From IMG/VR virus record IMGVR_UViG_3300035670_000659, positions 1 through 37,302 of that record: DNA of 37,302 nt. One strand, written 5' to 3'. The stretch's first letter is position 1. Each line of letters opens with the position of its first letter. The DNA is from a virus. Both the position numbers and the translations under genes were made by a program. Of this stretch, positions 1 through 37,302 are shown in pieces. The notes under the pieces are model-generated. The model had not been told where the DNA came from, ran no database searches, and was given only the letters and a program-made list of their open reading frames with translations.

Positions 1-87
1 TTCTACCTGATTAAATGTGAAGACAGTTACTACGAGCGCATGGAAGACGAAGTTTACATTTTACAGGACGACAACAATGAAACCTGA
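1..87 (+). CDS. 3' end of the small hypothetical gene that wraps around the contig ends
   Basis: These are the last 28 codons and stop of the gene seen whole at 36993-37250. The two copies are identical because the contig ends overlap. The reading frame ends in DDNNET and overlaps the start of the next gene (ATG at 77). It should not be counted as a separate gene once the contig is circularised. Confidence 0.85.
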   Translation, partial: FYLIKCEDSYYERMEDEVYILQDDNNET

Positions 88-126
88 ACACGAACAATTT
101 AAAAAGAACCTAGACGGCTCGACTAA
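1..126. repeat. Left copy of the terminal direct overlap (circular or permuted genome)
   Basis: Bases 1-126 are identical to 37164-37289. Beyond that, bases 127-134 differ at six of eight positions from 37290-37297, and bases 135-139 match 37298-37302 again. Such an overlap is what an assembler leaves when reading round a circular or circularly permuted genome. A true short terminal repeat is the alternative. Confidence 0.9.
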
Positions 127-328
127 GCGAGTGATAATCGGCTACATTCAAGAGCACCGTGCGAATGAGGACATGAGGTTTGGTGAGTGGTTGTACCTAG
201 TGTTATCAAGGGCCTTGTTTGCCGATAATAAAGAGACCATCCCAAGTCCTGAACAAATTGGGATGAAGCTGTATAAGATTGATGACTACGAATTGTCTCA
301 GCTTATTAAACAGGAGATTGAACAATGA
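77..328 (+). CDS. Hypothetical protein, 83 aa
   Basis: I do not recognise this family. The start ATG at 77 overlaps the end of the upstream gene; an in-frame ATG at 17 lies inside that gene's coding sequence and is rejected. The protein is charged and predicted mostly helical (KPEHEQFKKNLDG at the start, QLIKQEIEQ at the end), with no membrane segment. Its TGA overlaps the ATG of the next gene, so it belongs to the same transcript as the following accessory genes. A variant of this gene's 5' part appears at 37240-37302, with residues V-I replaced by H-L while the preceding Lys-Arg is kept through synonymous codons. Confidence 0.75.
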   Translation: MKPEHEQFKKNLDGSTKRVIIGYIQEHRANEDMRFGEWLYLVLSRALFADNKETIPSPEQIGMKLYKIDDYELSQLIKQEIEQ

Positions 329-4337: not shown

Positions 4338-4425
4338 ATCGTTTGCTGCACGCAGCCTGGACCTTCTATTACCCATAGTCATAGTTGTTCCTTCCAGGCT
4401 GCGTAGAGTAAAGGAGACACTATGA
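4330..4425 (+). CDS. Possible 31-aa leader ORF ahead of the glycan island
   Basis: ATG 4330 opens a 31-codon frame (starting MPKSFAARSLDLLLPIVIVV) whose TGA overlaps the ATG of the glycosyltransferase at 4422. It has a short hydrophobic stretch and a basic end. The same bases form the 12-bp inverted repeat at 4350-4404, so the open frame may be incidental. Coupling to the downstream start is the main argument for translation. Confidence 0.3.
   Translation: MPKSFAARSLDLLLPIVIVVPSRLRRVKETL
4350..4404 (+). promoter_or_regulatory. Large hairpin upstream of the glycosyltransferase cluster
   Basis: ACGCAGCCTGGA (4350-4361) pairs perfectly with TCCAGGCTGCGT (4393-4404) across a 31-nt loop. No U-tract follows, so it is not a simple intrinsic terminator. 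It lies immediately before the SD (AAAGGAG) of the first glycosyltransferase and may be a processing site, mRNA stabiliser or protein-binding element. Confidence 0.6.
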
Positions 4426-5369
4426 GAATAATATTTGTCGGCAATTTTACCGTTAATTACAGCTCAGAGAATCACCATAAGCAATCATTAGAAGCACTCG
4501 GCCATACCGTCGTACCACTACAGGAAGGCACCGCTAGCACTAAGCAGATATTCAAGGCCGCTATAGGCGCCGACGCACTTGTGTGGGTACATACGCATGG
4601 CTGGATGACGGACCAGAGGTATATCACAACTGAGAAGCTATTCCAGAACCTTAAACATATCGGCATACCAACACTTACTTATCATCTCGATCTGTGGAGA
4701 GGCTTAGCAAGGGAAAAAGATCTAGCAGAGGATCCGTTTTACTCGCACATTGAGCACTTTTTCACAGTCGACAAGCTTATGGCTGATTGGTTTAACGACA
4801 ACACAGATGTCAAAGGTCACTTTATGCCACCAGGAGTATTACACACCGAATGTGTCATCAGAGAACCGCAAGAAGTAGAGTACGAGGTCATCTTTGTGGG
4901 GTCTAAGGGCTACCATCCGGAGTGGCCATACCGACCACAGCTTATTGACTGGTTACGCGAGACGTATGGCAGCAAGTTCTTACATGTTGGTGGTGATGGC
5001 GATACTGGTACAGTCAGAGGATTAGGACTAAACCAGATATACGCAAATGCGAAAGTAGCCGTTGGTGATACGTTAAACATCGGTTTCAACTATCCTTACT
5101 ACACCAGTGATAGGCTGATGGAGTCTACTGGTAGAGGCGGTTTTACTATTTACCCTCGGATTAAGGGACTAGATGATCTGTATGAAGATGGCAAGGAAGT
5201 AGTCTACTACAAGCATGGTGACTTCGATGATTTAAAAGAGAAGATTGACTATTACCTCACACATGACGAAGAGCGACAGCGCATCAGGCTGCTTGGCCAC
5301 AAACGAGCCATGATTGATCACACCTACATGCATAGATGGTCGAGCATACTGGAGGTCATAAATGGATGA
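4422..5369 (+). CDS. GT-B glycosyltransferase, CgeB-like
   Basis: 315 aa. The N terminus IIFVGNFTVNYSSENH starts a Rossmann fold. The middle holds HFFTVDKLMADWF and VIFVGSKGYH, and the C-terminal domain holds NQIYANAKVAVGD, RLMESTGRGGFTIYP and a KRAMIDHTYMHRW tail. This matches CgeB/DUF3880-type glycosyltransferases, which move a sugar from a nucleotide donor to a protein or glycan. First of the island; SD AAAGGAG. The acceptor cannot be told from sequence; virion protein, DNA and host surface are all possible. Confidence 0.8.
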   Translation: MRIIFVGNFTVNYSSENHHKQSLEALGHTVVPLQEGTASTKQIFKAAIGADALVWVHTHGWMTDQRYITTEKLFQNLKHIGIPTLTYHLDLWRGLAREKDLAEDPFYSHIEHFFTVDKLMADWFNDNTDVKGHFMPPGVLHTECVIREPQEVEYEVIFVGSKGYHPEWPYRPQLIDWLRETYGSKFLHVGGDGDTGTVRGLGLNQIYANAKVAVGDTLNIGFNYPYYTSDRLMESTGRGGFTIYPRIKGLDDLYEDGKEVVYYKHGDFDDLKEKIDYYLTHDEERQRIRLLGHKRAMIDHTYMHRWSSILEVING

Positions 5370-6084
5370 CATGGTAAAAACTCATATTAATGGCAAGTGG
5401 GATCTTTGGCTAACCAAGCCGCGGTCAATGCGCGAGCAATGGGATATAGATAACGGTGGTTGGGAAGTCAAGCGTATGGAAGCCTTGCACGATGTTATTG
5501 CCACCGACGACGTTGTGTATTACGTTGGCTCAGAGGTAGGAGACTTAGCAGCGTTGTGCCAAACGTGGGGCGCTGGAATGGTTTTATTCGAGCCAAACCC
5601 AAAGGTGTGGAGTGGCACGCGCGCAATATGGGAAGCTAACAATTTGAAAACGCCTATATGCATTGAAGGCTTTGCAAGCGATCAGACAACGACATGGGAC
5701 AGCGATTATATATACGTTGGCAAATGGCCAGAGAACGCGTCTAGGCCGATTGAAGGTGCACACGGCTTTAAAGAGTTGGATAAGGAAGGCCAATCGTATC
5801 CACAGATACGGATAGATGATGTATATGCTAATAAGCGGATACCGCCGCCTACGATAATCGCCTTAGATGTTGAAGGCTCTGAGGGTAGGGTACTACGAGG
5901 CGCTGAGCAGACGTTGGCTAAACACCGTCCAACTATCTTTCTGTCCTTGCATCCAGAGTTCTTACACGAACAGTATGGGGAGTGGGGCGCTGAGCTAAGA
6001 AAATGGATCATAGATATTGGCTATGAGGAAACACTGCTCGAGTACCCGATGCATGAAGTTCATTTAATGTACACAGGTAAATAA
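5362..6084 (+). CDS. FkbM-family SAM-dependent methyltransferase
   Basis: 240 aa. The SAM-binding loop is YYVGSEVGDLAALCQTWG followed by VLFEPNPKVW, and the FkbM signature IALDVEGSEGRVLRGAE lies at residues about 172-188. FkbM enzymes methylate hydroxyls, often on sugars. Among glycosyltransferases it most likely O-methylates the glycan they build. It overlaps the upstream gene by 8 bp, with SD GGAGG. C-terminal LHPEFL and LEYPMHEVHLM are also typical of the family. Confidence 0.85.
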   Translation: MDDMVKTHINGKWDLWLTKPRSMREQWDIDNGGWEVKRMEALHDVIATDDVVYYVGSEVGDLAALCQTWGAGMVLFEPNPKVWSGTRAIWEANNLKTPICIEGFASDQTTTWDSDYIYVGKWPENASRPIEGAHGFKELDKEGQSYPQIRIDDVYANKRIPPPTIIALDVEGSEGRVLRGAEQTLAKHRPTIFLSLHPEFLHEQYGEWGAELRKWIIDIGYEETLLEYPMHEVHLMYTGK

Positions 6085-6093
6085 GGAGGCATT

Positions 6094-6321
6094 ATGTCAA
6101 ACAATATTAAACCTATCCAATATCGTAGAGTCTACAACGAGAAAGGCGACTTTGAGCAGCTTGAGCTGAGTCAGGATGGAAACGTTATCCAAATCAGTCT
6201 TGCGCATCCGACTCCACACTATAGTGGTTATCGTTGGGATGAGGTCAAAGACATCATTGACAAGCACCAAAAAGCAGTTACATCTGAGACGAGTAAGAAC
6301 ATAGAGGAATCATACAAGTAG
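6094..6321 (+). CDS. Hypothetical protein, 75 aa
   Basis: ATG 6094, SD AAGGAGG. It is a charged soluble protein (QYRRVYNEKGDFEQLELSQD, DEVKDIIDKHQK) with no recognised family. It sits between the methyltransferase and the second glycosyltransferase, with one base between its stop and the next ATG. Confidence 0.7.
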   Translation: MSNNIKPIQYRRVYNEKGDFEQLELSQDGNVIQISLAHPTPHYSGYRWDEVKDIIDKHQKAVTSETSKNIEESYK

Positions 6322-7206
6322 ATGATCGCGTATTTCTACTCACCAAATATAGAAGCCAATGTTATGCACCAGTGGGACGCAGGATTGTTGACAGACTTCC
6401 TAATGGGTGAGTTGTGGCGTCCACCTAACTTTGAGACGTTTGCCATAAAAGAAGTACGTAAACTCTCAAAATGCGATCGTGCCCTTGTAGCGATACCTGC
6501 AGCACACAACTATGAATACGTTGATGAGATAAACAAAGAGCTGAACAAGATCGACCGTGTTGTCTTATTCCTGAATGGCGACGAAGAGAATAAGTTTGAC
6601 GTCGATGCTATTGATCACCCAAACATTGAGATATGGGTACAGTACGCACATCCAGACAAGCACAATGAATACAACCGCTACGGCACAGGCTATCCTGCTC
6701 ATATGTCAGAACACATGAAGGAGATGCCGTACTATAAAGTGATAGACGTATTCTTCTCTGGTCAGTTAGTTCATAAGCGCCGAATGCAGATGTGGGATAA
6801 GATGAAACGCTACGAGATTGGACACGAGTGTAAGCTCGAGGGCTCAAAGGGTTTCGCCCAAGGTCTAGAGCATGGGGAATACTACCGTTGGATGTCTAAA
6901 GCTAAGTTTGCGCCGGCACCATCGGGCACTGTTCATCCAGATAGTTTTCGATTCTTTGAGGCGCTTGAGTGTATGGCGCTAGTGTTAGCTGATGAGGAAA
7001 GCCCATCAGGTCATATTAAGAGCTATTGGGAATGGATGTTTAAACAGGTACTACCAGTCATAAGAGTTCATAATTGGGAAAGCAGCATAGGCTACATGAA
7101 TGACGCCTACGACGAATGGGACCAGCGTATACAAGCGCAAACTGTCTGGTGGATAAACTGGAAGCGTAACTTTTCATACACGGTTATGGAGCAACTACTA
7201 GCATGA
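6322..7206 (+). CDS. Putative glycosyltransferase (exostosin/GT-B-like)
   Basis: 294 aa. The C-terminal block FAPAPSGTVHPDSFRFFEAL followed by ECMALVLADE reproduces the P.G....SFR.FEAL..G..PV pattern of nucleotide-sugar-binding domains in exostosin-like and GT1/4-like enzymes. The N-terminal half is less recognisable (YVDEINKELNKIDRVVLFL). A DVFFSGQLVHKRR segment marks the start of the second Rossmann domain. Its stop overlaps the next gene's ATG. Acceptor unknown. Confidence 0.7.
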   Translation: MIAYFYSPNIEANVMHQWDAGLLTDFLMGELWRPPNFETFAIKEVRKLSKCDRALVAIPAAHNYEYVDEINKELNKIDRVVLFLNGDEENKFDVDAIDHPNIEIWVQYAHPDKHNEYNRYGTGYPAHMSEHMKEMPYYKVIDVFFSGQLVHKRRMQMWDKMKRYEIGHECKLEGSKGFAQGLEHGEYYRWMSKAKFAPAPSGTVHPDSFRFFEALECMALVLADEESPSGHIKSYWEWMFKQVLPVIRVHNWESSIGYMNDAYDEWDQRIQAQTVWWINWKRNFSYTVMEQLLA

Positions 7207-7934
7207 TCACTGTTATAATCCCAACAAGTCCCATTAAGTCGCATCCAGATACAAGTTTTATAGAAGAAACCATTGCGTCTGTGCGGCACCACCTTCCAGA
7301 CGCCGAAATAATCATAACGTTTGACGGCGTAAGAGAAGAACAGGCCGACTATACCGATAGGTATAACGAATATAAGAATAAGATGCTGTGGAAGTGCTTG
7401 CATCAGTATGAGAATGTACTACCTATAGTATTTGATGAGCACAAGCATCAGAGTGGGATGATCAAGGAAGCCATTAACGAGGTACGAACGCCCCTTATGC
7501 TTTATGTAGAACATGACACCCCTTTAGTGACAGACCGTAAGATAGATTGGGAAGAATTAACGAGTTTTATTACAGATGGTCACGCGTATACAATAAGGTT
7601 GCACCACGAATCGAAGATACTTGATGTGCATCAGTACCTCACAATTGGCTACAATGGCAACTTTGCCAAGACGTATCAGTGGAGCCAGAGGCCGGCTTTG
7701 TCATCAGTCTTATATTACAAAGAAGTGGTACTGCCGAACATACCTGATAATAACTTCATAGAAGACCAATTTTATGGCAAGGTAGCCAACGATTATTTAG
7801 AGAACGGTGAGCAAGGTTGGTTTATGCATCGACTCTGGATATACCATCCTAAGGGCAATATACAGCGAAGTTACCATCTAGATGGAAGGCAAGGTGAGAG
7901 AAAGTTTACCTCTGACGATGAGGTATGGCAATGA
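7203..7934 (+). CDS. GT-A (family 2-like) glycosyltransferase
   Basis: 243 aa. It starts ITVIIPTSPIKSHPD with IEETIASVRHHLPDAEII, the donor-binding start of GT2 folds. LMLYVEHDTPLV supplies a DxD-like acidic motif (EHD). FIEDQFYGKVAND later resembles the catalytic ED of the family. No membrane segment, so a soluble cytoplasmic enzyme. Overlaps on both sides place it in one transcript. The downstream HNH gene interrupts the run of sugar genes. Confidence 0.75.
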   Translation: MITVIIPTSPIKSHPDTSFIEETIASVRHHLPDAEIIITFDGVREEQADYTDRYNEYKNKMLWKCLHQYENVLPIVFDEHKHQSGMIKEAINEVRTPLMLYVEHDTPLVTDRKIDWEELTSFITDGHAYTIRLHHESKILDVHQYLTIGYNGNFAKTYQWSQRPALSSVLYYKEVVLPNIPDNNFIEDQFYGKVANDYLENGEQGWFMHRLWIYHPKGNIQRSYHLDGRQGERKFTSDDEVWQ

Positions 7935-8377
7935 CTCGAACTACACTGTCACCAATATTTAGATTCTCTAAAAGTTTTGTAATTGAATCTGACGGCTGTT
8001 GGGTGTGGCAGCGTTATACGAACAGAGGTTATGCTAGATTTAATAGCGGATCAAAAATCGTCGATGCACACCGCTGGCTATACCAGCAGGTATTTGGCCC
8101 TCTGACCAACAGACAACATCTAGATCATTTGTGTAGGAATAGGGCTTGTGTTAATCCGCGACACTTGGAGATAGTTGATAATTACACGAATTGGTCTAGA
8201 GGCAATTCTTTGACTAGGAAGAAGTCAAAACAAACACACTGTATACGAGGACACGAGTTATTTGGTGATAACTTGTCTATCCTGCAGAAGAGTGGTAGAG
8301 CTCAACGGCGGTGTAAAAAGTGCCATGCAATGTACGAGAGCAAGTATAGAAAGGCAAAAAATGGTGAAGGATTTTAG
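7931..8377 (+). CDS. HNH (His-Me finger) endonuclease in the glycan island
   Basis: 148 aa from ATG 7931, which overlaps the upstream TGA; GAGG lies nine bases before. An in-frame ATG at 7925 is an alternative. The core is GCWVWQRYTNRGYARF, AHRWLYQQVFGPLTNRQHL, DHLCRNRACVNPRHLEIV, an HNH_3-type fold. A second Cys/His cluster (HCIRGHELFG, CKKCHAMYESKYR) forms a C-terminal zinc knuckle. Such free-standing nucleases behave as homing elements in phages. It separates two glycosyltransferases without breaking either. Confidence 0.9.
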   Translation: MTRTTLSPIFRFSKSFVIESDGCWVWQRYTNRGYARFNSGSKIVDAHRWLYQQVFGPLTNRQHLDHLCRNRACVNPRHLEIVDNYTNWSRGNSLTRKKSKQTHCIRGHELFGDNLSILQKSGRAQRRCKKCHAMYESKYRKAKNGEGF

Positions 8378-9380
8378 ACTCGGCCTAATTGTACGGGCCG
8401 ACAAAACCGGACTCGGCTACCAAAGCCGTTCATATTACAAGCACCTCAATCCCGACAAAGTGCTATTAGTAGACATCTCAAAATACAACCAGCAACCGCA
8501 ATACTATGGGTGGTACCAGAACTACCAACTGTCTAAAGGCTTTCCAGACGAACGACTAATGCGTGGCTTTTTAAAAGACCTCGACATCGTCCTAACTGCC
8601 GAGACGCCATACAACTACAGTTTCTACGCCATCGCTAAGGAAATGGGAGTGAAGTTCGTGGTGGCCCCAAACTATGAGTTCTTTGACCACTTCGACAAAC
8701 CACAATTACCAATACCAGACGCTCTATTTGTTCCAAGCATGTGGCACTATAAAGAGTTAGCCCAATGGGCGAAAGAGCATAATGTGTTCTGCAAATATAT
8801 GCATCATCCAGTAGACCTCGAAGAAGTACCATTTAAACAGCGCACAACTACGTTCCACTATCATGTAGCCGGCAAGATAGCAGCCAACGATAGAAACGGC
8901 ACTGAGATCTATCTACAGGCTTTTCCAAATGGCCGCATAACAACACAGACAGACGACACAGCAAGAAGAATCCAGCGTCGCTACCACCAAGTAAGAATTA
9001 AACAAAACCTTACGCACAACTACGAGCTATATGACACTGGCGATATACTGATCTACCCAAGGCGCTACGGTGGCAACTCACTTGTGCTGAATGAAGCTCT
9101 GGCGGCTGGATGTCCAGTTATCATGCCAAACACCTCGCCAAACGATGTCCTACTACCACAGGAATGGCTTGTTAAAACTCATACACAAAACAGATTTACT
9201 CCAAGAACGGTTGTCGATTTATATACAGTTAATCCACAAGACCTCATCTATACATACGAGCAAGTAGCAGGTAATATAGAAGCATATAGCAGACAAGCAT
9301 ATGAAATCGCGCAAACAATTAGTTGGCAACAAAGGAAGCAGGAATGGGTGGACACACTGGTAGACGTTCTACAATCTTAG
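8361..9380 (+). CDS. GT-B glycosyltransferase (group 1/4-like)
   Basis: 339 aa from ATG 8361 (MVKDFRLGLIVRADKTGLG). An upstream in-frame start at 8262 lies within the HNH coding sequence and is rejected. The N-terminal domain ends with ALFVPSMWHYKEL. The C-terminal domain carries DILIYPRRYGGNSLVLNEAL followed by AAGCPVIMP, the classic E-x7-E donor site of group 1/4 enzymes. It overlaps the HNH gene by 17 bp and the next gene by 37 bp. Confidence 0.85.
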   Translation: MVKDFRLGLIVRADKTGLGYQSRSYYKHLNPDKVLLVDISKYNQQPQYYGWYQNYQLSKGFPDERLMRGFLKDLDIVLTAETPYNYSFYAIAKEMGVKFVVAPNYEFFDHFDKPQLPIPDALFVPSMWHYKELAQWAKEHNVFCKYMHHPVDLEEVPFKQRTTTFHYHVAGKIAANDRNGTEIYLQAFPNGRITTQTDDTARRIQRRYHQVRIKQNLTHNYELYDTGDILIYPRRYGGNSLVLNEALAAGCPVIMPNTSPNDVLLPQEWLVKTHTQNRFTPRTVVDLYTVNPQDLIYTYEQVAGNIEAYSRQAYEIAQTISWQQRKQEWVDTLVDVLQS

Positions 9381-10223: not shown

Positions 10224-10638
10224 TCCAACCTACAACTGGAAGTGGCATCACTTCATGTTAGGCATAATGAATGGCGAGAACCGTTACCTAGCTTACTGTA
10301 AGGCTTTCGGCATTGATCCAGATGATAAGAGCAAGTACGCGACTGCATGCGTTAGTGCTTCACAGCTTTTAAGAAAACCTAAGTTCCAGACTTTCTGGAC
10401 TGAGTACCTTGAAGCCAATGGCTTCAATGACGCGGAAGTTGACCAAAAGCTATTAGAGCTAATGGACGCCGAAGAAAAGAACGTGGCGCTTGGAGCTATC
10501 AAGCATTATAACGAGCTACGAGGTCGTGTTATTAAGAGGCTCGATCATACGAACAAGGGCGAAAAGTTTGAAACTCCCCAAGTCATAGATATGGGTGGTG
10601 AGGGGTTTGTTGATGAAGATAAGCAAGAAGCAGAATGA
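10192..10638 (+). CDS. terS: Terminase small subunit
   Basis: 148 aa, directly before TerL. The N-terminal half (HFMLGIMNGENRYLAYCKAF, ASQLLRKPKFQTFW) is the helical DNA-binding part that resembles terminase_2-type small subunits. The central NDAEVDQKLLELMDAEEKNV and AIKHYNELRGRVIKR are the oligomerisation helices commonly seen in this family. The acidic C terminus would contact TerL. SD AAAGGA; overlaps both neighbours. It recognises the packaging site and starts DNA packaging. Confidence 0.85.
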   Translation: MVKHRLSDTIDPTYNWKWHHFMLGIMNGENRYLAYCKAFGIDPDDKSKYATACVSASQLLRKPKFQTFWTEYLEANGFNDAEVDQKLLELMDAEEKNVALGAIKHYNELRGRVIKRLDHTNKGEKFETPQVIDMGGEGFVDEDKQEAE

Positions 10639-11986
10639 AGTAGTAGAGCTAATCAACTCTAGGCAGAAAGATATTATCCTTTTGATTGGAGTGCTCGGAA
10701 GTTCAAAGACTTTTTTACAGTCACTGATAGCACACAGTATAAACATGCAGTACCCTAACTCGGTCGGTGGATTCGCAAAGAAGAACATGACTGACATCAA
10801 CACGGGCACAATATTCGATATTCTAGAGGCCGCGAATACAATGGGAATAGACAGCATCCGTCAGTATGGGCAACCACTAAACTATCTTGTATATAAAAAC
10901 AATAACTCGCGCCTACAATTCCACGAACTCGATCACACTAAAGATAGAAACTTTAACAAGACAAAAAAATTACAGCTTACCTATAACATGATTGACGAGC
11001 TCGACTCTATCACTCGAGAGGCGTTTTGGGCGGCTCATGGGCGTGTTGGCCGTCGTAATAACTGTGTCGTTTGTGGAGCAACACCTAGAGACATAGAGCA
11101 AGGCAAGGCATGCACTACGACTAGCCACATGTGCCCGCCAGCGTTCAGTCTAGCATCTTGTAATCCAAACAACGCTTGGGTCAAAGAAGACTTTTATGAT
11201 CCTTGGAAAAGAGGGGAATTACCAGATAATGTGGCAGTTATCGAGTTCACGCAGGATGATAGCTTTTTAGGCCGTTCTTACTATGAGAAGTATAAAAACT
11301 CACCACCTAACTATCGTAAAAGGTATCTTGAGAATAATTGGGACTACAGCGATGATGAACAATCGTTGTTCAAGTATATATACATGGACGCTGCAGGAAG
11401 GGATAATAGAGACCGCAACAATGACAGGATTGCTTCACTTGACGTCGCGCTTAGTGGAGTAGATAGGGCAGTCGCCACACTTTGGGAAGGTCGCATGATC
11501 GTTGATATCGAGATATTGAAAGACAAAGACGAGAAGATCAAGACTGAGAAGCTTGGCGAAAAGTTTAAGCAATGGTGCATTGATAGGGGCGTTGGTTACG
11601 AGAACACGGACGTTGATGGTGTCGGTAATGGGGAAGGTGTCTGCGACTGGCTCGATGATAATTGGGGCCAGGTCAACAGATTTAAAGCGGGATCTTCTGT
11701 AGATGGCAACTACGATAATCTAAGATCTATGGTGTCACATAAGTTGGCTCTTGGGTTTGAGAATGGTTTAGTTACATATCTCAACAGTTGCCCACACATA
11801 TCGGACTTCAAGAAAGAGGCTACCAGCATAGCCTACGAGGAAACTGCATCTAACCTAAAATTGGAACGAAAAGAAAAAGCAAAATCCAGGATTGGTTCGT
11901 CTCCTGACGTATTCGACTCGGTGATGATGGGCTATCGCAGGTTAGCTTCAAGTGATGAGCTTACATTAGACGATATATTCATGTAG
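10613..11986 (+). CDS. terL: Terminase large subunit (packaging ATPase/nuclease)
   Basis: 457 aa from ATG 10613 (GAGGGG eight bases upstream). The ATPase domain has a Walker-A-like GVLGSSKT (residues 26-33) and Walker B NMIDELD. The nuclease domain shows IASLDVALSGVDRAV, then NTDVDGVGNGEGVCDWL and a C-terminal PDVFDSVMMGYR, supplying the metal-binding aspartates. A Cys-rich insertion (CVVCG ... ACTTTSHMC) sits between the two domains, unusual for the family. It drives DNA into the prohead through the portal encoded next. Confidence 0.93.
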   Translation: MKISKKQNEVVELINSRQKDIILLIGVLGSSKTFLQSLIAHSINMQYPNSVGGFAKKNMTDINTGTIFDILEAANTMGIDSIRQYGQPLNYLVYKNNNSRLQFHELDHTKDRNFNKTKKLQLTYNMIDELDSITREAFWAAHGRVGRRNNCVVCGATPRDIEQGKACTTTSHMCPPAFSLASCNPNNAWVKEDFYDPWKRGELPDNVAVIEFTQDDSFLGRSYYEKYKNSPPNYRKRYLENNWDYSDDEQSLFKYIYMDAAGRDNRDRNNDRIASLDVALSGVDRAVATLWEGRMIVDIEILKDKDEKIKTEKLGEKFKQWCIDRGVGYENTDVDGVGNGEGVCDWLDDNWGQVNRFKAGSSVDGNYDNLRSMVSHKLALGFENGLVTYLNSCPHISDFKKEATSIAYEETASNLKLERKEKAKSRIGSSPDVFDSVMMGYRRLASSDELTLDDIFM

Positions 11987-20778: not shown

Positions 20779-20813
20779 AAAAAAAGAGCAGACTATCATA
20801 TCTGCTCTTTTTT
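20779..20813 (+). terminator. Intrinsic terminator after the tail tube gene
   Basis: AAAAAGAGCAGA (20781-20792) and TCTGCTCTTTTT (20801-20812) pair perfectly over an 8-nt loop and end in a T-run. The A-tract makes it potentially bidirectional. It closes the capsid and tail-tube unit. Confidence 0.9.
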
Positions 20814-30919: not shown

Positions 30920-30948
30920 TTGACAACCATGAACGCTTGGTGTATAAT
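30920..30948 (+). promoter_or_regulatory. Consensus sigma-70 promoter of RNA-1
   Basis: TTGACA (30920-30925), 17-bp spacer, TATAAT (30943-30948) in the context GGTGTATAATG. Both boxes are perfect. The start site is expected at about 30955, at the base of the GAAA-capped hairpin. Confidence 0.93.
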
Positions 30949-30954
30949 GAGTGC

Positions 30955-31150
30955 ATACTAGAAATAGTATAAAACACACATTAACAACTTAACTCTATAC
31001 ACCCGCACCATAGGCAACTTGGTTTACTCCAAGTAGATGGGCGACTAGGACGGTTAGCCGTAGTAAGCTATCCCATCCTAGAACCGACCTGCATCTTTCA
31101 ACGGCAATCGGTGTGGATGCATAGAGTTAAGGATAGCTACCACAACGGTG
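30955..31150 (+). ncRNA. Structured RNA-1, leader or free RNA of an unrecognised family
   Basis: A 5' hairpin ATACTA-GAAA-TAGTAT (30955-30970) is followed by TTAACAA. An 11-bp closing helix pairs 30988-30998 (CTTAACTCTAT) with 31121-31131. Inside are CATAGGCAA (31009), a hairpin ACTTGG/CCAAGT (31017-31034), a stem CTAGGA/TCCTAG (31045-31081), TAGAACCGA (31079) and a possible pseudoknot: ACCGA 31083-31087 with TCGGT 31108-31112, crossing GCATC 31091-31095 with GATGC 31116-31120. The blocks recur in RNA-2. No terminator follows, so the transcript reads into the membrane gene at 31169. The region holds no plausible protein. Confidence 0.8.
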
Positions 31151-31168
31151 GCAAAGAAAGGAACAACT

Positions 31169-31399
31169 ATGAGCAAGAAACAAGCTCGCAACACAATTAA
31201 ATCACTAAATATGGCGATAACACGTATCGGCGAAACTATCCTAGTATATGCCGCTGTAGATTACCTACTACGTGTCAGTAACGAAGTAGAAATGTATATC
31301 ATAGCCTTTGGCCTATTTTGGGTCATGACTGACCTTGCATTGTTCTACTACCACTACTTCATCGTACCAGCAGCTAAGACTATCAGCGACGATAAATAG
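31169..31399 (+). CDS. Small membrane protein, 76 aa
   Basis: ATG 31169 with AAAGGAAC upstream; the longer frame from 31148 extends into the leader and is rejected. A basic N terminus (MSKKQARNTIKSL) precedes two transmembrane helices (ETILVYAAVDYLL and YIIAFGLFWVMTDLALFYYH). It is transcribed from the strong promoter through RNA-1. It may affect host membrane or superinfection exclusion; unknown. Confidence 0.65.
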   Translation: MSKKQARNTIKSLNMAITRIGETILVYAAVDYLLRVSNEVEMYIIAFGLFWVMTDLALFYYHYFIVPAAKTISDDK

Positions 31400-31433
31400 T
31401 ATGTTACTATGTCATGGCCGTTAAGGAGCACTA

Positions 31434-31460
31434 GCACCTTTCTGCCACTGACTGAGGTGC
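31434..31460 (+). promoter_or_regulatory. Hairpin covering the ribosome binding site of the transglycosylase
   Basis: GCACCT (31434-31439) pairs with AGGTGC (31455-31460), which contains the GAGGTG Shine-Dalgarno of the gene starting at 31465. A 19-codon frame from ATG 31409 runs through the hairpin and ends with TGA overlapping that start, so its translation could open the site. It is a reasonable case for delayed lysis-enzyme synthesis, inferred only. Confidence 0.45.
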
Positions 31461-31464
31461 GATC

Positions 31465-32106
31465 ATGATTAGAATAATTACCACAGCGCTTGCTACATTC
31501 TTGTTTGCTTCAAGCTTACAAGTTTTAGCAGCCAGTAACCTACAGAAGCCGCCTGTAGCTGCAGAACCAGCTCAGGTAGTAGAGATACCATCACAACCTA
31601 TAATTGCCCATACAGAGCCTGTAAAGCAGCCTGAGAGCCCACGTGAAGAGCCGAAGCAGCCTGAACCTGCTGAGGTAGTGGATCCTCAGAACTGTGAGCC
31701 GGATCAGTATTGGGATAGGGAACCACCGTACAACTGTATAGACAAACCGGAGCCTGTCGTCTCGGTTGCGAGAAGTGAGGCGACACCGGTTTCGTCTGGA
31801 GTTGAACAGTGGCGACACTTAGTTGAGCAGTACAAGTGGGATGTTGATATTGCGATGGCAGTCATGTCAGCGGAAAGTGGAGGCAACCCAAATGCAGAGA
31901 ACCTAAGCGACGTCCACAGAGATATGTACGGCAACGTTATATGCTATGGATCGTTTGGCTTGTTCCAGATAAGCTGTCACGGTGGTCAGATATTTGACCC
32001 AACGGCTAACGTCCAAGCTGCATGGATAAAGTACATCAACGCTGGAAATAGTTGGTCGCCTTGGGGTGCATATACCTCGGGTGCGTACTACAAGTATTTA
32101 CAATAA
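31465..32106 (+). CDS. Secreted lytic transglycosylase (SLT/lysozyme-like)
   Basis: 213 aa with a signal peptide (MIRIITTALATFLFASSLQV, LAAS cleavage). Residues 25-100 are a Pro/Glu-rich linker with two Cys (NCEPDQYWD, YNCIDKPE). The enzyme domain starts WRHLVEQYKWDVDIAMAVMS and has catalytic Glu in SAESGGNPN, then YGSFGLFQISCHGGQIFDP and YINAGNSWSPWGAYTSGAYY. It would cut the glycan strands outside the membrane, independent of a holin. Its Cys pair may form a disulfide. Confidence 0.85.
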   Translation: MIRIITTALATFLFASSLQVLAASNLQKPPVAAEPAQVVEIPSQPIIAHTEPVKQPESPREEPKQPEPAEVVDPQNCEPDQYWDREPPYNCIDKPEPVVSVARSEATPVSSGVEQWRHLVEQYKWDVDIAMAVMSAESGGNPNAENLSDVHRDMYGNVICYGSFGLFQISCHGGQIFDPTANVQAAWIKYINAGNSWSPWGAYTSGAYYKYLQ

Positions 32107-32278
32107 GACAAAGGAAGAAGCAGCCCAAGCTCTCCGTGCGAGCCAACATGCTATTAATATGCTAAACTAAAAACATACTGCAAACATTGCGGCTGCAGTC
32201 GTACCTACTATTCATTCTTTAAGTTATACGTGAGGTGTAATTTAAAGAGGTGTATTACGCCCTATATAGGCGTGCCTA
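32107..32278 (+). other. Intergenic stretch with a possible decayed Zn-ribbon coding remnant
   Basis: No intact gene. Two out-of-phase coding-like pieces are visible: TKEEAAQALRASQHAINMLN ending in a stop, then, in another frame with no start, KTYCKHCGCSRTYYSFFKLY with further Cys residues ending RKRP-stop. GAGGTGTA occurs twice 16 bp apart and ACGCC-7-GGCGT is a small hairpin. This could be a frameshifted former small gene. Confidence 0.35.
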
Positions 32279-32339
32279 GAAAAAGACCGTAACTATTAAC
32301 TTTGTTAGTGAATGATGCTTATCGGTCTTTTTCTTTTTT
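32279..32339 (+). terminator. Intrinsic terminator after the lysis region
   Basis: GAAAAAGACCG (32279-32289) pairs perfectly with CGGTCTTTTTC (32323-32333), with an inner weak hairpin in the 33-nt loop, and a TTTTTT run follows. It closes the lysis operon. Confidence 0.8.
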
Positions 32340-32355
32340 ATGATAGAATGTGTTC

Positions 32356-32739
32356 ATGGTTAAAGAGCGGGTGAGGAACGAAGAATATAATTGGTTCTCT
32401 AATTGGCATCGTAAGCGCCTGAGTGATGGTTGCTTTATGATGGACATTGATTGCGTAGAGATTCGCTTTGACGGCGCTACAGGCCGTGTGGCGGGCCTTT
32501 TTGAAATTAAGAGTAAGAATGCACAAATGAATGAAATACAGCGCAGAACGCTCCTATGGATGTCTAGAAAGCTGTCTGTACCTGCATACATGGTGAAGTA
32601 CCACGCTGGTGGCTTTTCTAACCGGCAGAACTACCTAGATTCCTCTACCAAGTTTGAGGTGTGGCGCATTGATAGAGATATGGATTACCTTGGTATGTTG
32701 GATGAGAAAGCGTTTATTCACCTTATGGAGAATCTATAG
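32356..32739 (+). CDS. Restriction-like nuclease domain protein (VRR/PD-(D/E)XK-like)
   Basis: 127 aa from ATG 32356 (GTG 32350 possible). DIDCVEIRF, then GLFEIKSKNAQMNEIQRRTL, gives D...ExK, the active-site order of PD-(D/E)XK nucleases. Later strands are AYMVKYHAGGF and FEVWRIDRD. There is no SD; a TATGAT sits about 10 bases upstream, so the mRNA may be almost leaderless. It stands apart from the recombination operon and may be a small host-DNA or defence-related nuclease, inferred. Confidence 0.65.
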   Translation: MVKERVRNEEYNWFSNWHRKRLSDGCFMMDIDCVEIRFDGATGRVAGLFEIKSKNAQMNEIQRRTLLWMSRKLSVPAYMVKYHAGGFSNRQNYLDSSTKFEVWRIDRDMDYLGMLDEKAFIHLMENL

Positions 32740-32756
32740 CGTCTTATAAATAGAAT

Positions 32757-32791
32757 TAAAAACAGCCCTAGTTTTTTGTGGGCTGTTTTTA
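32757..32791. terminator. Bidirectional terminator between convergent genes
   Basis: AAAAACAGCCC (32758-32768) and GGGCTGTTTTT (32780-32790) pair over an 11-nt loop, with A- and T-runs on each side. It serves the + strand nuclease gene and the - strand gene ending at 32801. Confidence 0.9.
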
Positions 32792-32800
32792 GGTTGAATC

Positions 32801-33016
32801 TTATTCGCTATCGGCTTCTGGTTCAGACGCAACGTGTGCAACTGCACCGACCAAGGCCATAACTTCAGCTTTAGCCTGATCGAACTCGACTCGACGATCT
32901 GGATCAGTTGCTAGTTCGTCGTCCATGCGTGCCGACAATTCTTGGAACTGTTTAACTGCGTAGTTACGCAAGCGCATTCTTAGGCGCTGTTGTTCGAGTG
33001 CTACATTATATGCCAT
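32801..33016 (-). CDS. Hypothetical helical protein, 71 aa
   Basis: Minus-strand gene with AGGGGC SD. It is mostly one long helix rich in Arg and Glu (NVALEQQRLRMRLRNYAVKQ, then ARMDDELATDP), with an acidic end (ASEPEADSE). No known family. One of only two minus-strand genes; its promoter is the extended -10 at 33045-33053. It may be an early regulator or host-takeover protein by position. Confidence 0.6.
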   Translation of the reverse strand: MAYNVALEQQRLRMRLRNYAVKQFQELSARMDDELATDPDRRVEFDQAKAEVMALVGAVAHVASEPEADSE

Positions 33017-33044
33017 ATCTTGCCCCTTGATTAGTTGTAGCCCT

Positions 33045-33053
33045 ATTATAGCA
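33045..33053 (-). promoter_or_regulatory. Extended -10 promoter, minus strand
   Basis: Read on the minus strand it is TGC-TATAAT, an extended -10 element, 28 bases before the ATG of the 71-aa gene. There is no matching -35 box. Confidence 0.6.
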
Positions 33054-33108
33054 GGCTGTATTTTGTTCGTATTTTGTACTATTTACTATTATTGAAGAAA
33101 GTTAAAAA

Positions 33109-33121
33109 AGTATTGACAAAA
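33109..33121 (+). repeat. Direct repeat AGTATTGACAAAA, left copy
   Basis: Thirteen bases identical to 33590-33602 on the other side of the HNH gene. The left copy has TTGACA but no -10 at 17 bp, so it is an orphan -35. It may mark the edge of an inserted cassette. Confidence 0.6.
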
Positions 33122-33135
33122 CGTAAGCATCCAAG

Positions 33136-33543
33136 TCAAGGTTTCGTACTCTTTTTGGAGTGTCTACCTGTTTTGTTGTACCTTCTCCGCTCAACTTTGT
33201 CCTCCTTGGGTCGCTTTCGGTCTAGATTATTGTGTCTGTTCTTGAGGTTTTCCGACCGGGTCACAACTCTTAGGTTGCAACGCCTGTTGTCCAAACCATT
33301 GCCGTTAATATGGTCAACTACCATGCCTTTAGGAGCGCCTGTTATCAGCCTATGCAAGTACCCTCTTTCAAGTGAACTAGTGAAGTCATGTGGGTCGGGT
33401 ATTGAATACTGAACGTACTTTTGGGTGTAGCCGTCTCGCTTTCCACGTATGATGTGCCATCTGTAATCTTTGACCAGATTGTAATCCTCGCTATCTATTA
33501 GAACTTCCTCACCTGTGCGTGCTGTCTTTACTTCTAATCTCAC
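33136..33543 (-). CDS. HNH (homing-type) endonuclease, minus strand
   Basis: 135 aa. DYRWHIIRGKRDGYTQKYVQ, LHRLITGAPKGMVVDHINGN and GLDNRRCNLRVVTRSENLKN form the HNH_3 core with the DH...N residues. The C-terminal part is very basic (DRKRPKED, RRRYNKTGRHSKKS). SD AAAAGGAG. It is flanked by a 13-bp direct repeat and oriented against the phage's main direction, so it is probably a recent insertion. No intron is visible. Confidence 0.9.
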   Translation of the reverse strand: MRLEVKTARTGEEVLIDSEDYNLVKDYRWHIIRGKRDGYTQKYVQYSIPDPHDFTSSLERGYLHRLITGAPKGMVVDHINGNGLDNRRCNLRVVTRSENLKNRHNNLDRKRPKEDKVERRRYNKTGRHSKKSTKP

Positions 33544-33570
33544 CTTATACTCCTTTTGCTATATGAGCAT

Positions 33571-33600
33571 ATTATATATAATACATAAGAGTATTGACAA
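33571..33600 (-). promoter_or_regulatory. Promoter of the minus-strand HNH gene
   Basis: On the minus strand TTGTCA (33600-33595), 18-bp spacer, TATAAT (33576-33571). Its -35 occupies the same bases as the -35 of the + strand RNA-2 promoter, so the two promoters exclude each other. Confidence 0.7.
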
Positions 33601-33602
33601 AA
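33590..33602 (+). repeat. Direct repeat AGTATTGACAAAA, right copy
   Basis: Identical to 33109-33121. Here the TTGACA belongs to the complete promoter of RNA-2. Confidence 0.6.
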
Positions 33603-33622
33603 TTAAATATATAGCGTATAAT
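33594..33622 (+). promoter_or_regulatory. Consensus sigma-70 promoter of RNA-2
   Basis: TTGACA (33594-33599), 17-bp spacer, TATAAT (33617-33622) in the context AGCGTATAATG. Expected start is about 33629, at the 5' hairpin. Confidence 0.93.
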
Positions 33623-33628
33623 GTACCT

Positions 33629-33860
33629 ATGATCAGAAATGATCAATTACCTTAACAAATCAATCGTGTATATCACACCGTCAGCATAGGCAATTGCATC
33701 GGCGATACAGACTTATAACCTGTAGAACCGAAGCAGTAGGTTGGTCAAACCTGAACCTTGAAACAGCAATCGCTGGCGATGTAATGTACATGATAGTACA
33801 ACATCTTCCCCTCTTACTAGCACTTAACCAAGCTCAAGATTTATTCTTGAGCTTTTTCTT
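33629..33860 (+). ncRNA. Structured RNA-2, paralogue of RNA-1 with its own terminator
   Basis: The 5' hairpin is TGATCA-GAAA-TGATCA (33630-33645). TTAACAA (33652), CATAGGCAA (33685), TAGAACCGA (33723) and GCAATCG..TG..GATG (33766-33781) occur in the same order as in RNA-1. A closing helix pairs TGTATATCA (33667-33675) with TGATAgTACA (33791-33800). Inside, CATCG-GCGAT (33697-33706) pairs with ATCGC/CGATG (33769-33781), and AGGTT/AACCT (33738-33752) forms an extra hairpin. A terminator ends it, giving about 230 nt. No protein-coding frame is plausible. Confidence 0.82.
33830..33860 (+). terminator. Intrinsic terminator of RNA-2
   Basis: AAGCTCAAGA (33830-33839) pairs with TCTTGAGCTT (33845-33854) over a 5-nt loop and is followed by TTTCTTTT. 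It makes RNA-2 a free-standing transcript. Confidence 0.9.
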
Positions 33861-33888
33861 TTATACTAAGGATGTCTAGGGCACTTTT

Positions 33889-33916
33889 TTGTATAGCGTT
33901 GATGTTAGTGTATAAT
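33889..33916 (+). promoter_or_regulatory. Promoter of the winged-helix gene
   Basis: TTGTAT (33889-33894), 16-bp spacer, TATAAT (33911-33916) in the context TAGTGTATAATG. The -10 context matches the RNA-1 and RNA-2 promoters. About 110 bases of leader follow. Confidence 0.75.
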
Positions 33917-33975
33917 GCTTATCGTAACCAGTAGTAGCGGTTTACATAATACGAGTTACTAAGATAAAATTTATG

Positions 33976-34022
33976 TGCAAAATCCAGCTACCAGCTACTA
34001 CGGTGGCTGGATTTTGCATTTT
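33976..34022 (+). promoter_or_regulatory. 17-bp leader hairpin (attenuator-like) before the winged-helix gene
   Basis: TGCAAAATCCAGCTACC (33976-33992) pairs along its whole length with GGTGGCTGGATTTTGCA (34002-34018), with one G-U pair and a 9-nt loop. Four Ts follow, then AGGAGGG, the SD of the gene at 34033. It could end transcription weakly or control ribosome access. An in-frame ATG at 33973 lies at the base of the stem. Confidence 0.75.
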
Positions 34023-34032
34023 AGGAGGGTTT

Positions 34033-34407
34033 ATGGAAGAAGACATGTTCCATATAACACAAAAAAGACAGGTTGTTGACCCTAGGGTTGACATCATAAA
34101 TAAAAGTACAGTACCACTTCTTAAGGTAGCAATGCATGAAATGGGCTTTGAGATACCACTTGAGTTTGCACTGTACAACCAAATACGTTTCTATGAGGAA
34201 TTCGGCAAACTGAACCTTGGATACAACGTAGCCTCAGCGGAGACTCTAGCAGACCAGTTTGGCGTAACTAAGAAGCAAATACTCAAAGCATACGACAACC
34301 TAACTAACAAACGTGGGCTTGGAAAATGGATTACTAGCCAGCAACCAATATGCCGAAATGTACGTCGAACTTGGGTGTCCAATGCACGCCTGAACCGTAA
34401 GGGTTGA
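34033..34407 (+). CDS. Winged-helix DNA-binding protein, 124 aa
   Basis: ATG 34033 with AGGAGGG; the upstream in-frame ATG at 33973 lies in the hairpin and is less likely. The HTH is ASAETLADQFGVTKKQILKA followed by YDNLTNKRGLGKWI, as in replication-initiator or GntR-like winged helices. The N-terminal part (HITQKRQVVDPRVD) and C terminus (CRNVRRTWVSNARLNRKG) are basic. With its own promoter, hairpin leader and terminator it is the best candidate for the phage's main regulator or a replication initiator. Confidence 0.7.
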   Translation: MEEDMFHITQKRQVVDPRVDIINKSTVPLLKVAMHEMGFEIPLEFALYNQIRFYEEFGKLNLGYNVASAETLADQFGVTKKQILKAYDNLTNKRGLGKWITSQQPICRNVRRTWVSNARLNRKG

Positions 34408-34420
34408 TGGCTTTGTTTGT

Positions 34421-34460
34421 AAGACGCCCGACCAGACTTTATAGGTCGGGCGTCTTTTTT
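34421..34460 (+). terminator. Strong intrinsic terminator after the winged-helix gene
   Basis: AAGACGCCCGACC (34421-34433) pairs perfectly with GGTCGGGCGTCTT (34444-34456), followed by a T-run. Confidence 0.93.
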
Positions 34461-34491: not shown

Positions 34492-34518
34492 AATCCCCAC
34501 CTGTTACAGTGGGGTTTT
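34492..34518. terminator. Second, weaker terminator hairpin
   Basis: CCCCAC (34495-34500) and GTGGGG (34509-34514) with an 8-nt loop, TTTT on one side and an A-rich stretch on the other. Possibly bidirectional; it insulates the next leader. Confidence 0.6.
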
Positions 34519-34589
34519 GCGTAGTCACTCTTGTAGCCTTTGCAAGCTACATTAACTATGCTATCATACCTAAGACTATTTGCGTAGTC
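34516..34589 (+). repeat. 11-bp direct repeat TTTGCGTAGTC around a promoter
   Basis: TTTGCGTAGTC occurs at 34516-34526 and 34579-34589, on either side of the promoter at 34540-34567. It may be an operator pair; the right copy also forms the loop and 3' arm of a GACTA/TAGTC hairpin. Confidence 0.5.
34540..34567 (+). promoter_or_regulatory. Probable promoter of the third structured leader
   Basis: TTGCAA, a 16-bp spacer and TATCAT, so the -10 is good and the -35 moderate. It lies between the two 11-bp repeats. Expected start about 34573. Confidence 0.5.
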
Positions 34590-34809
34590 GCCAACTGTGA
34601 GGGTAATCACTGTAAGAGGCGATAACCACACGGATACCTTAACCATACCGAACCAAAGAACGACGCATGAACCGATGACCTAGGCAGCATCCTAGGAGTA
34701 GGGGACTAGCACTGGATTAACAACTTTGGGACGGGAGGGAAGGACAACGGCTGGAAGCGTGGGGCCTCTCTATACCACACTCGTCAAGTATTTATCCACA
34801 AGGGGGATT
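34573..34809 (+). ncRNA. Long structured leader before the small HNH gene
   Basis: About 235 nt without a convincing gene. Hairpins seen: GACTA/TAGTC at 34574-34589 at the very 5' end, GTGA/TCAC inside the next segment, CCTAGG-CAGCAT-CCTAGG near 34679-34696, and TGCG..TCG with CGACGCA as a possible longer stem. It contains TTAACAACTT, AACCGA and TAGGCA, which also occur in RNA-1/RNA-2 but in another order, so I do not call it the same family. No terminator; it should read into the HNH gene. Confidence 0.45.
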
Positions 34810-35455: not shown

Positions 35456-36481
35456 ATGCCACAATCACCCTTACGAGAAACAGTAACAGAAGACAAATGG
35501 CTGGATTACCTCTCAGCTACTGGTACAACCGAAGAAGCAAAAGAAGCAATCGAAGCTTACCTAAACGATGACATTATCGTGAATGAAGCTACACAACCAA
35601 CACCAGAACCAACGCCAACTGAACCTACCAACCCAACACCCACACCACCAGTTCCGACAACTATTGATATGGCTGTTGCTGGCCTCGAATACGCAGAGAA
35701 CACAATTCCTGGCACTGAGGGCACAAACTACTTTGTTAACTCGCTTGATCTTTACAAGTCACTCGCTGCTGACGGCTTTAAGCGCATTAGATTACCCTTT
35801 ATCACTGAACGTCTAAGCAAAATCTACAAGTCACAAATCGACCTAAGCATTGGACGCGCTGAGTCTTCTGGCTTGAAAGTATGGCTAGACTTTCACGACT
35901 ATGGCCGATCAATTGACCTACAGTCACGTGTAGACATGGCTATGGCCTACAAGGGCGTCGACTCGGTTGAAGCTATCGAGATAGATAACGAACCACATGA
36001 AGGCAACGTCAGCGAGCGTGACTGGTACGCACACGCTAAACGGATTACCGAAGCTATGCAGTCGGCAGGATGGAACAAGATTATCGGTGTACCAATCTAC
36101 CATTGGTCATCAATGGATAACTTCGCTGACAAAAAGCTTGATCTAGATCCACCAGTTAAGGGCGACAACATCCGCTACATCTTCCACAACTACTTTAATG
36201 CTGGCAATACAGGCTTTAATCATCCAGCACAACCGAACGAACCAGCCGATTTACACGTTCAACGACTTAACTACGTAGAAGAATGGGCCCGTAGACGCGG
36301 TGTAAAGCTCGCTGTGACCGAATTTGGTGTTCCTGCGACTCAGGAGTGGATAGACAACGCAAAGCCCTTTGTAGAGGCTTTAAAAGCGTCAGACGTGGTA
36401 ACGCACGCTTTCTATTGGGCGACAGGCCGAGGCTATACATCACAGACAGCCTACAAGGCTATCCACAAACAACTATTCTAG
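35456..36481 (+). CDS. GH5-type glycoside hydrolase (cellulase superfamily)
   Basis: 341 aa, SD AAAGGAG, no signal peptide. Residues 1-42 form a small N-terminal helical part and about 43-70 a Pro/Thr linker (PTPEPTPTEPTNPTPTPP). The catalytic TIM barrel follows: KRIRLPFITERL, VWLDFHDYG, IEIDNEPHEG with acid/base Glu, YIFHNYFNAGNTGF, LAVTEFGVPATQEW with nucleophile Glu, and HAFYWATG. All key GH5 residues are present. It would cut a beta-glucan-, mannan- or EPS-like glycan. The acidic linker suggests attachment to the virion, or release at lysis. Confidence 0.85.
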   Translation: MPQSPLRETVTEDKWLDYLSATGTTEEAKEAIEAYLNDDIIVNEATQPTPEPTPTEPTNPTPTPPVPTTIDMAVAGLEYAENTIPGTEGTNYFVNSLDLYKSLAADGFKRIRLPFITERLSKIYKSQIDLSIGRAESSGLKVWLDFHDYGRSIDLQSRVDMAMAYKGVDSVEAIEIDNEPHEGNVSERDWYAHAKRITEAMQSAGWNKIIGVPIYHWSSMDNFADKKLDLDPPVKGDNIRYIFHNYFNAGNTGFNHPAQPNEPADLHVQRLNYVEEWARRRGVKLAVTEFGVPATQEWIDNAKPFVEALKASDVVTHAFYWATGRGYTSQTAYKAIHKQLF

Positions 36482-36996: not shown

Positions 36997-37250
36997 TAGG
37001 ACAAACCGTTGCTTTCTCAAAACAGGTAAACCTGCTAGTACATCCGTCAGGTGTCATCTGGCAAAAAGGCGAAATCATGGCGTCAAAATTGCGGGAGGTT
37101 GTTGTAAACGAACCTAGTAAGCCTACGTTCAACTCAGTTGCACAGGCCACTAGGTTTAAATATTTCTACCTGATTAAATGTGAAGACAGTTACTACGAGC
37201 GCATGGAAGACGAAGTTTACATTTTACAGGACGACAACAATGAAACCTGA
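36993..37250 (+). CDS. Hypothetical protein, 85 aa (wraps to positions 1-87)
   Basis: ATG 36993 overlaps the upstream TGA; AAAGG lies upstream. VAFSKQVNLLVHPSGVIWQK, KLREVVVNEPSKPTF and YFYLIKCEDSYYERMEDEVY suggest a small beta-rich soluble domain. The longer open frame from 36837 lies within the membrane genes and is rejected. Its 3' end is the left terminal repeat copy. Confidence 0.7.
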   Translation: MIGQTVAFSKQVNLLVHPSGVIWQKGEIMASKLREVVVNEPSKPTFNSVAQATRFKYFYLIKCEDSYYERMEDEVYILQDDNNET

Positions 37251-37302
37251 ACACGAACAATTTAAAAAGAACCTAGACGGCTCGACTAAAAGACATCTAA
37301 TC
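37164..37302. repeat. Right copy of the terminal overlap, with a diverged end
   Basis: 37164-37289 equals 1-126 exactly; 37290-37297 differs at six of eight bases and 37298-37302 matches 135-139. In the reading frame of the 83-aa gene the differences change two codons synonymously (Lys, Arg) and two non-synonymously (Val-Ile to His-Leu). Confidence 0.9.
37240..37302 (+). CDS. 5' part of the 83-aa hypothetical gene, variant copy
   Basis: The same gene as at 77-328, truncated by the contig end after 21 codons. Codons 17-18 are AAA AGA instead of AAG CGA (both Lys-Arg) and codons 19-20 encode His-Leu instead of Val-Ile. It is a strain variant or an assembly artefact, not a second gene. Confidence 0.7.
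   Translation, partial: MKPEHEQFKKNLDGSTKRHLI

Follow-up and report, generated by a model that had tools for sequence, protein, structure and literature searches.

The virus record IMGVR_UViG_3300035670_000659 of IMG/VR, whose 37,302 bases are called the window here, contains two related structured RNAs, RNA1 (30955–31131) and RNA2 (33630–33794), each about 170 nucleotides (nt) long. They are a genuine, selected and previously unrecognised RNA family with two members, so far from one phage. At a probability of roughly 40%, we favour the reading that RNA1 and RNA2 are a new type of cis-acting structured leader, which would work as folded nascent RNA in the manner of the put RNAs of phage HK022.

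The two copies share four sequence blocks in the same order, and all four are at the places given by a sequence-only reading of this DNA. TTAACAA is found at 30981 in RNA1 and at 33653 in RNA2. The blocks CATAGGCAA (31009 and 33685) and TAGAACCGA (31079 and 33723) each occur exactly twice in the window. The 16-nt block GCAATCGNTGNNGATG, at 31104 and 33766, is identical at 13 of 16 positions, and the conserved stretch extends to ACCTGnAnCTTnnAACnGCAATCGnTGnnGATG, for which our own count is 25 of 33. The copies also have features in common that the sequence-only reading had not listed: a hairpin of 6 base pairs (bp) with a GAAA loop at position +1, a linker of the same length, matching lengths of helices and junction joints, and a hairpin downstream.

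RNA1 and RNA2 were folded separately and their minimum-energy structures were compared. Both structures follow the same plan from 5' to 3', on the plus strand: the GAAA hairpin (P0), the linker, helices P1, P2 and P3, an internal loop, P4 and a three-way junction. P0 has 6 bp and lies at the predicted transcription start (30955–30970 in RNA1 and 33630–33645 in RNA2). The 17-nt linker with UUAACAA corresponds to 30971–30987, where it is single-stranded, and to 33646–33662. The core (30988–31131 and 33663–33794) is composed of P1 of 11 bp, P2 of 2 bp in RNA1 and 3 bp in RNA2, P3 of 7 bp, the AUAG/AAUC internal loop, P4, and the three-way junction with the hairpins H1 and H2. Both RNAs have a 1x1 mismatch between P1 and P2, a C·A mismatch between P2 and P3, and the 4x4 loop AUAG/AAUC after P3. 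P4 is a GC/GC pair in both, and the junction joints are 1, 0 and 7 nt long: P4 is followed by one A, H1, H2 with zero linker, and a 7-nt joint leading back to P4. H2 consists of 5 bp with a UG bulge on the 3' strand and GG/CC.

The long closing helix P1 differs in sequence between the copies, as had been claimed, and has 11 bp in each. The claimed swap of hairpins is also seen in the predicted structures. The conserved 9-mer UAGAACCGA is on the 3' side of H2, the second junction hairpin, in RNA1, and on the 3' side of H1, the first one, in RNA2; in these models, the copies differ in which junction arm holds the UAGAACCGA module. Compared with shuffled sequences, the folds are very stable (z -6.0 for RNA1 and -6.6 for RNA2). 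P1 and P3 form with a probability of about 0.98 or more in the full leaders, and the least certain part is H2 of RNA2 (0.5–0.6). The classic 11-nt GAAA receptor sequence is not present, and the docking of P0 is therefore only an idea.

Comparison of the two copies indicates selection on the fold. Of the 40 base pairs that can be matched between the copies, 21 have not changed, 16 have been replaced on both sides by another standard pair, and 3 differ on one side only; no pair is broken. Homology within H1 and H2 is assigned from the predicted folds, and a formal R-scape test needs more than two sequences. The unpaired parts GAAA, AUAG, AAUC, the junction A and the UG bulge, as well as UAGAACCGA, are identical in both. 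A covariance model built from RNA2 alone detects RNA1 with 54.6 bits (E=1.5e-10, a rough value due to short calibration). The pairing plan without any sequence requirement occurs twice in the window with zero mismatched pairs, and never on either strand of 4.87 Mb of other loci, in which five occurrences are seen if up to two mismatches are allowed. Since the copies have changed their sequences yet kept their predicted shape, the shape must be needed. A single genome provides its own covariation test, in which the helices of two copies were rewritten and the loops remained constant.

Four Rfam scans gave no credible match. No family reached its gathering threshold over the whole window with Rfam 15, and at E up to 10 there was nothing on RNA1 and only sub-threshold chance matches on RNA2. 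Together with the compensatory changes and the covariance match, this agrees with the sequence-only reading, which had proposed two paralogous structured RNAs that match no known Rfam class. The lack of even a weak match in Rfam speaks against its suggestion that the RNAs imitate a known host RNA. One architecture-only match was found in the V2 extension of a Saccharibacteria 16S gene (locus L201); this candidate for a host 16S mimic was rejected as chance, because the AUAG/AAUC loop is not in place and five matches of that kind occur in 4.9 Mb. ARAGORN gives no tRNA or tmRNA match. The protein partners of retron or omega RNAs (reverse transcriptase, IscB/TnpB) are not among the families of the approximately 25 proteins scanned.

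Relatives were searched with patterns that demand exact motifs and with genome scans under stricter filters, and the records closest to the window may be missing from the searched set. In IMG/VR, the pattern TTAACAA-ATAGGCAA-GCAATCG gave 5 chance matches, TTAACAA-ATAGGC-GCAATC gave 112 matches, none with the P3 helix, and ATAGGC-GAACCGA-GCAATC gave 100 matches, none of which fits. None fits among the listed matches to the promoter plus TAACAA either. Contiguous CCTGNNNCTNNNAACNGCAATC has 30 matches in IMG/VR, none of which fits, and none in 393 Saccharimonadia genomes. Covariance searches were empty for a TM7 phage, 80 loci with related transglycosylases, 20 whole records of phages with related transglycosylases, and 773 genome draws (393 from Saccharimonadia and 380 from the phylum Patescibacteria, which may overlap); as a positive control, the same kind of search recovers the expected signal from the window. 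Blastn against 50,697 phage records returned chance matches only, and no kin was found with the M23 peptidase (viral contigs) or the transglycosylase alone (genome contigs) as queries. The sequence-only reading would have given up the family if both further copies and covariation were lacking. No further copies were found in these searches, but the covariation between the two copies is strong.

Both RNAs follow a promoter, as had been claimed, and these promoters are perfect. TTGACA-N17-TATAAT is seen at only two sites in 37 kilobases (kb), at 30920–30948 for RNA1 and 33594–33622 for RNA2 (both plus strand), and the sites end 6–7 nt before the GAAA hairpins. The -35 box of the RNA2 promoter overlaps a divergent minus-strand promoter (33600–33571) for an HNH gene. 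Downstream, the units have another element in common, the hairpin GCUACC...ACGGUGGC, at a distance of 5 nt from RNA1 and of about 190 nt from RNA2. In each unit, the Shine-Dalgarno sequence of the first gene comes shortly after this hairpin. After RNA1 the hairpin is GCUACC-ACAAC-GGUGGC (31136–31152, plus strand). Its twin after RNA2 (33987–34007) is contained in an extended terminator-like hairpin (33981–34013, plus strand) upstream of the Shine-Dalgarno sequence of the open reading frame (ORF) at 34033. GCUACC/GGUGGC hairpins occur only twice in the genome, and one of 500 shuffles aligned as well. This common hairpin suggests that the whole leaders are related and not the RNA domains alone.

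The genes that follow, all on the plus strand, are different. The first gene after RNA1 (31169–31399) encodes a membrane-like protein of 76 amino acids without a family match, a possible holin or antiholin, and the second (31465–32106) encodes a lytic transglycosylase (SLT_3). The unit is followed by an intrinsic terminator (32284–32328, plus strand), and the terminators it meets are at 32328 and 32787. The leader of ORF 31169 (31132–31176), with the hairpin and the Shine-Dalgarno sequence, shows strong complementarity to that of the transglycosylase gene (31413–31461). The duplex has -33 kcal/mol, none of 60 shuffles is as good for a shorter piece of it, and it may couple or time the translation of the two lysis genes.

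An intrinsic terminator with a 10-bp stem and a T-rich tail (33830–33862) lies 35 nt beyond RNA2. The first gene after RNA2 (34033–34407) encodes a protein of 124 amino acids, winged-helix-like by eye, with weak matches to MocR/PdxR regulators (E 0.007–0.01, far below the cut-off). A strong intrinsic terminator (34421–34456, -24.8 kcal/mol) and a further one (34495–34514) come next. In total, four hairpin terminators lie on the same strand after RNA2, at 33854, 34013, 34456 and 34514. Between RNA2 and ORF 34033, the stretch 33886–34033 has a TATAAT box at 33911 and a leader of about 100 nt with a terminator-like hairpin, possibly an attenuator or another small RNA. At 34540–34809, a third promoter-like site (34567) precedes a 6-bp hairpin with a UUGC tetraloop at 34574 and about 230 nt of non-coding DNA. 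This DNA contains AUUAACAACUU and GAACCGA, motifs in common with RNA1, and has no stable overall fold (z -0.8).

The anatomy described above points to a cis-acting leader, which the sequence-only reading had covered only by the word regulator in its list of guesses. Transcripts that start at the two best promoters should have the GAAA hairpin at their 5' end, and their first 170 nt or so would fold into a compact three-way-junction domain while leaving RNA polymerase. Presumably, the constant loops (GAAA, UUAACAA, AUAG/AAUC and the 7-nt joint) are contact sites for a partner at or close to the transcribing complex, and its binding would alter the fate of that same transcript. The most likely effect would be that polymerase reads through downstream terminators, as with putL and putR of HK022. 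Each copy would be needed in its own unit, RNA1 for the lysis genes and RNA2 for the regulator-like gene and possibly the early region.

The deep divergence of two intact copies suggests that neither is redundant, which fits cis action. If each copy acts on the transcript that it begins, it is easier to see why both kept the fold than if they made a single diffusible product. The domain ends at P1, and the sequence directly after it is a reading frame in RNA1 and a terminator in RNA2; the GCUACC/GGUGGC hairpin is still in both units. Duplex energies for alternative pairing of the leader domain with a terminator or a Shine-Dalgarno sequence are no better than those of shuffles, so a classical strand-swapping switch is not apparent in these models; the option left would be a nascent RNA acting through a bound partner. 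The four terminators of the RNA2 unit would suit an antitermination mechanism. Within this leader reading, the support is stronger for action in cis than for antitermination itself. Several facts speak against the reading. No likeness to put RNA in sequence or fold was shown, and RNA2 alone resembles a complete small-RNA gene with promoter, RNA and terminator. The promoter-like sites at 33911, 34567, 36512 and 2997 could drive downstream genes without antitermination, and simple pattern scans overcall terminators. More broadly, and somewhat more tentatively, the two RNAs might be a new structured-RNA class with a tertiary architecture fixed to the nucleotide, controlling either the own transcripts of a Saccharibacteria phage or the gene-expression machinery of its host by a mechanism unseen in known RNA families. 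In that architecture, the GAAA hairpin possibly docks into the AUAG/AAUC loop.

Among the alternatives, action in trans survives best, but we consider it rather unlikely. In this case both would accumulate as stable RNAs, RNA2 as a transcript of about 230 nt that ends at a terminator of its own and RNA1 by cleavage from its mRNA, and would bind a protein of the host or some other target. They could be decoys, inhibitors of a defence or scaffolds for a ribonucleoprotein, for example. Abundant small RNAs typically have what is seen here: strong dedicated promoters, a stable hairpin at the 5' terminus, a closed fold of high stability and, in RNA2, a terminator directly behind the RNA. RNA1, however, has no terminator of its own and continues into a gene with a free Shine-Dalgarno sequence, and one diffusible product hardly explains two strongly diverged copies. 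The single-stranded tail of RNA2 has no base-pairing target above shuffled controls, and antisense targeting through this tail was rejected on that ground.

A leader that senses a ligand or protein is clearly less probable. The conserved loops would then be a binding pocket, and binding would act on the downstream gene through termination in RNA2 and through translation in RNA1. In riboswitches and protein-binding leaders, a terminator or a Shine-Dalgarno sequence usually follows a closed P1-junction domain. This layout is seen here, with a terminator after RNA2 and a Shine-Dalgarno sequence after RNA1, and constant loops with variable helices fit an aptamer. Nevertheless, P1 has 11 bp and is almost fully formed, and no pairing of the domain with the terminator or the Shine-Dalgarno sequence beats shuffled controls; anti-terminator pairing inside the leader was rejected as not above shuffles. 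Rfam gave no match to a riboswitch or ribosomal-protein leader, and unlike most riboswitches, the RNAs have no copies in the other phages or host-like genomes searched. Least probable is a leader whose 5' hairpin and compact fold merely shield the transcript from ribonucleases or form a processing site for ribonuclease III or E: a 6-bp hairpin stands exactly at the predicted 5' end, and the promoter-like site at 34567 also precedes such a tetraloop hairpin, but protection alone would not call for bulges, internal loops, junction joints and a linker length that are the same in both copies.

The two ends of the window (1–139 and 37164–37302) carry an identical repeat of 126 bases, and the last 13 bases diverge. 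Based on this repeat, the genome appears to be complete, at about 37.2 kb, and circular or terminally repeated. Phage proteins identified in it are the portal, capsid, tape measure and ERF recombinase. The large terminase gene (10613–11986) matches annotated terminases and is distant kin of terminases of Bacteroidetes phages. The lysis region is located around 29–32 kb. Its transglycosylase has a single match among the 50,697 phage records, the TM7 phage DolZOral124_53_65, and relatives in 3 of 147 Saccharimonadia genomes, with an ERF-like gene near one of those loci. These relatives make Saccharibacteria the likely, not proven, host.

Other parts of the genome have features of their own. Glycosyltransferases, an FkbM methyltransferase and an HNH gene lie in one block (4422–9380) and are perhaps for sugar modification of the surface or virion. 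A phage-encoded glycosyl hydrolase family 5 (cellulase-like) protein corresponds to 35456–36481. Long hexamer-like GGCTAC/GGCAAC/GGCGAC and GCCGATGCCGCC-like repeat runs within reading frames (1823–2097 and 724–970) would encode low-complexity proteins. A nearly perfect bidirectional terminator, AAAAAGAGCAGA...TCTGCTCTTTTT, lies at 20781–20812 within the structural gene block.

In small phages, large RNAs with such precise conservation are rare, and their role is usually central, as with put, pRNA and nut. If the RNAs act in cis as antiterminators, they would represent protein-free antitermination by a fold unrelated to put, and this in a phage of Patescibacteria, a poorly studied group. If they act in trans, the phage would have a new means of working on host machinery, either against it or in its favour. 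Under either reading, the RNA is a well-defined molecule, open to synthesis, probing and structure determination.

The packaging RNA (pRNA) of phi29 has a similar length, a long closing helix and a three-way junction, all of which resemble RNA1 and RNA2. The phage studied here differs in having an ordinary large terminase and two diverged copies with a 5' hairpin outside the closing helix. The sequence-only reading had also guessed at a packaging RNA, and the terminase makes one of the phi29 type improbable. EAR of the Bacillus eps operon is a processive antitermination leader RNA, structured, near the transcript 5' end and cis-acting. RNA1 and RNA2 would likewise act in cis as structured RNAs near the 5' end, but the Rfam scans at E up to 10, which include EAR if it is held in Rfam, gave no credible match. 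Orphan structured RNAs derived from metagenomes are recognised by structure and covariation from many homologues (PMC2864571). The recognition is of the same kind here, with two copies in a single phage instead of many homologues.

The put RNAs of HK022 are about 70 nt long, have two stem-loops and bind the zinc-binding domain of the beta' subunit (PMC9378689). Two related RNAs per phage lie downstream of the early promoters, bind RNA polymerase and suppress termination, and no phage protein is needed (PMC9378689). In contrast to this fold of two stem-loops, the RNAs described here, of about 170 nt, combine a GAAA hairpin at the 5' end with a long helix and a three-way junction. Membership in the put family is not claimed, and antitermination here is putative. 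The likeness is in the arrangement: one phage has two related structured RNAs, each of which heads a transcription unit between a promoter and the terminators that follow, and here, too, no dedicated phage protein is apparent.

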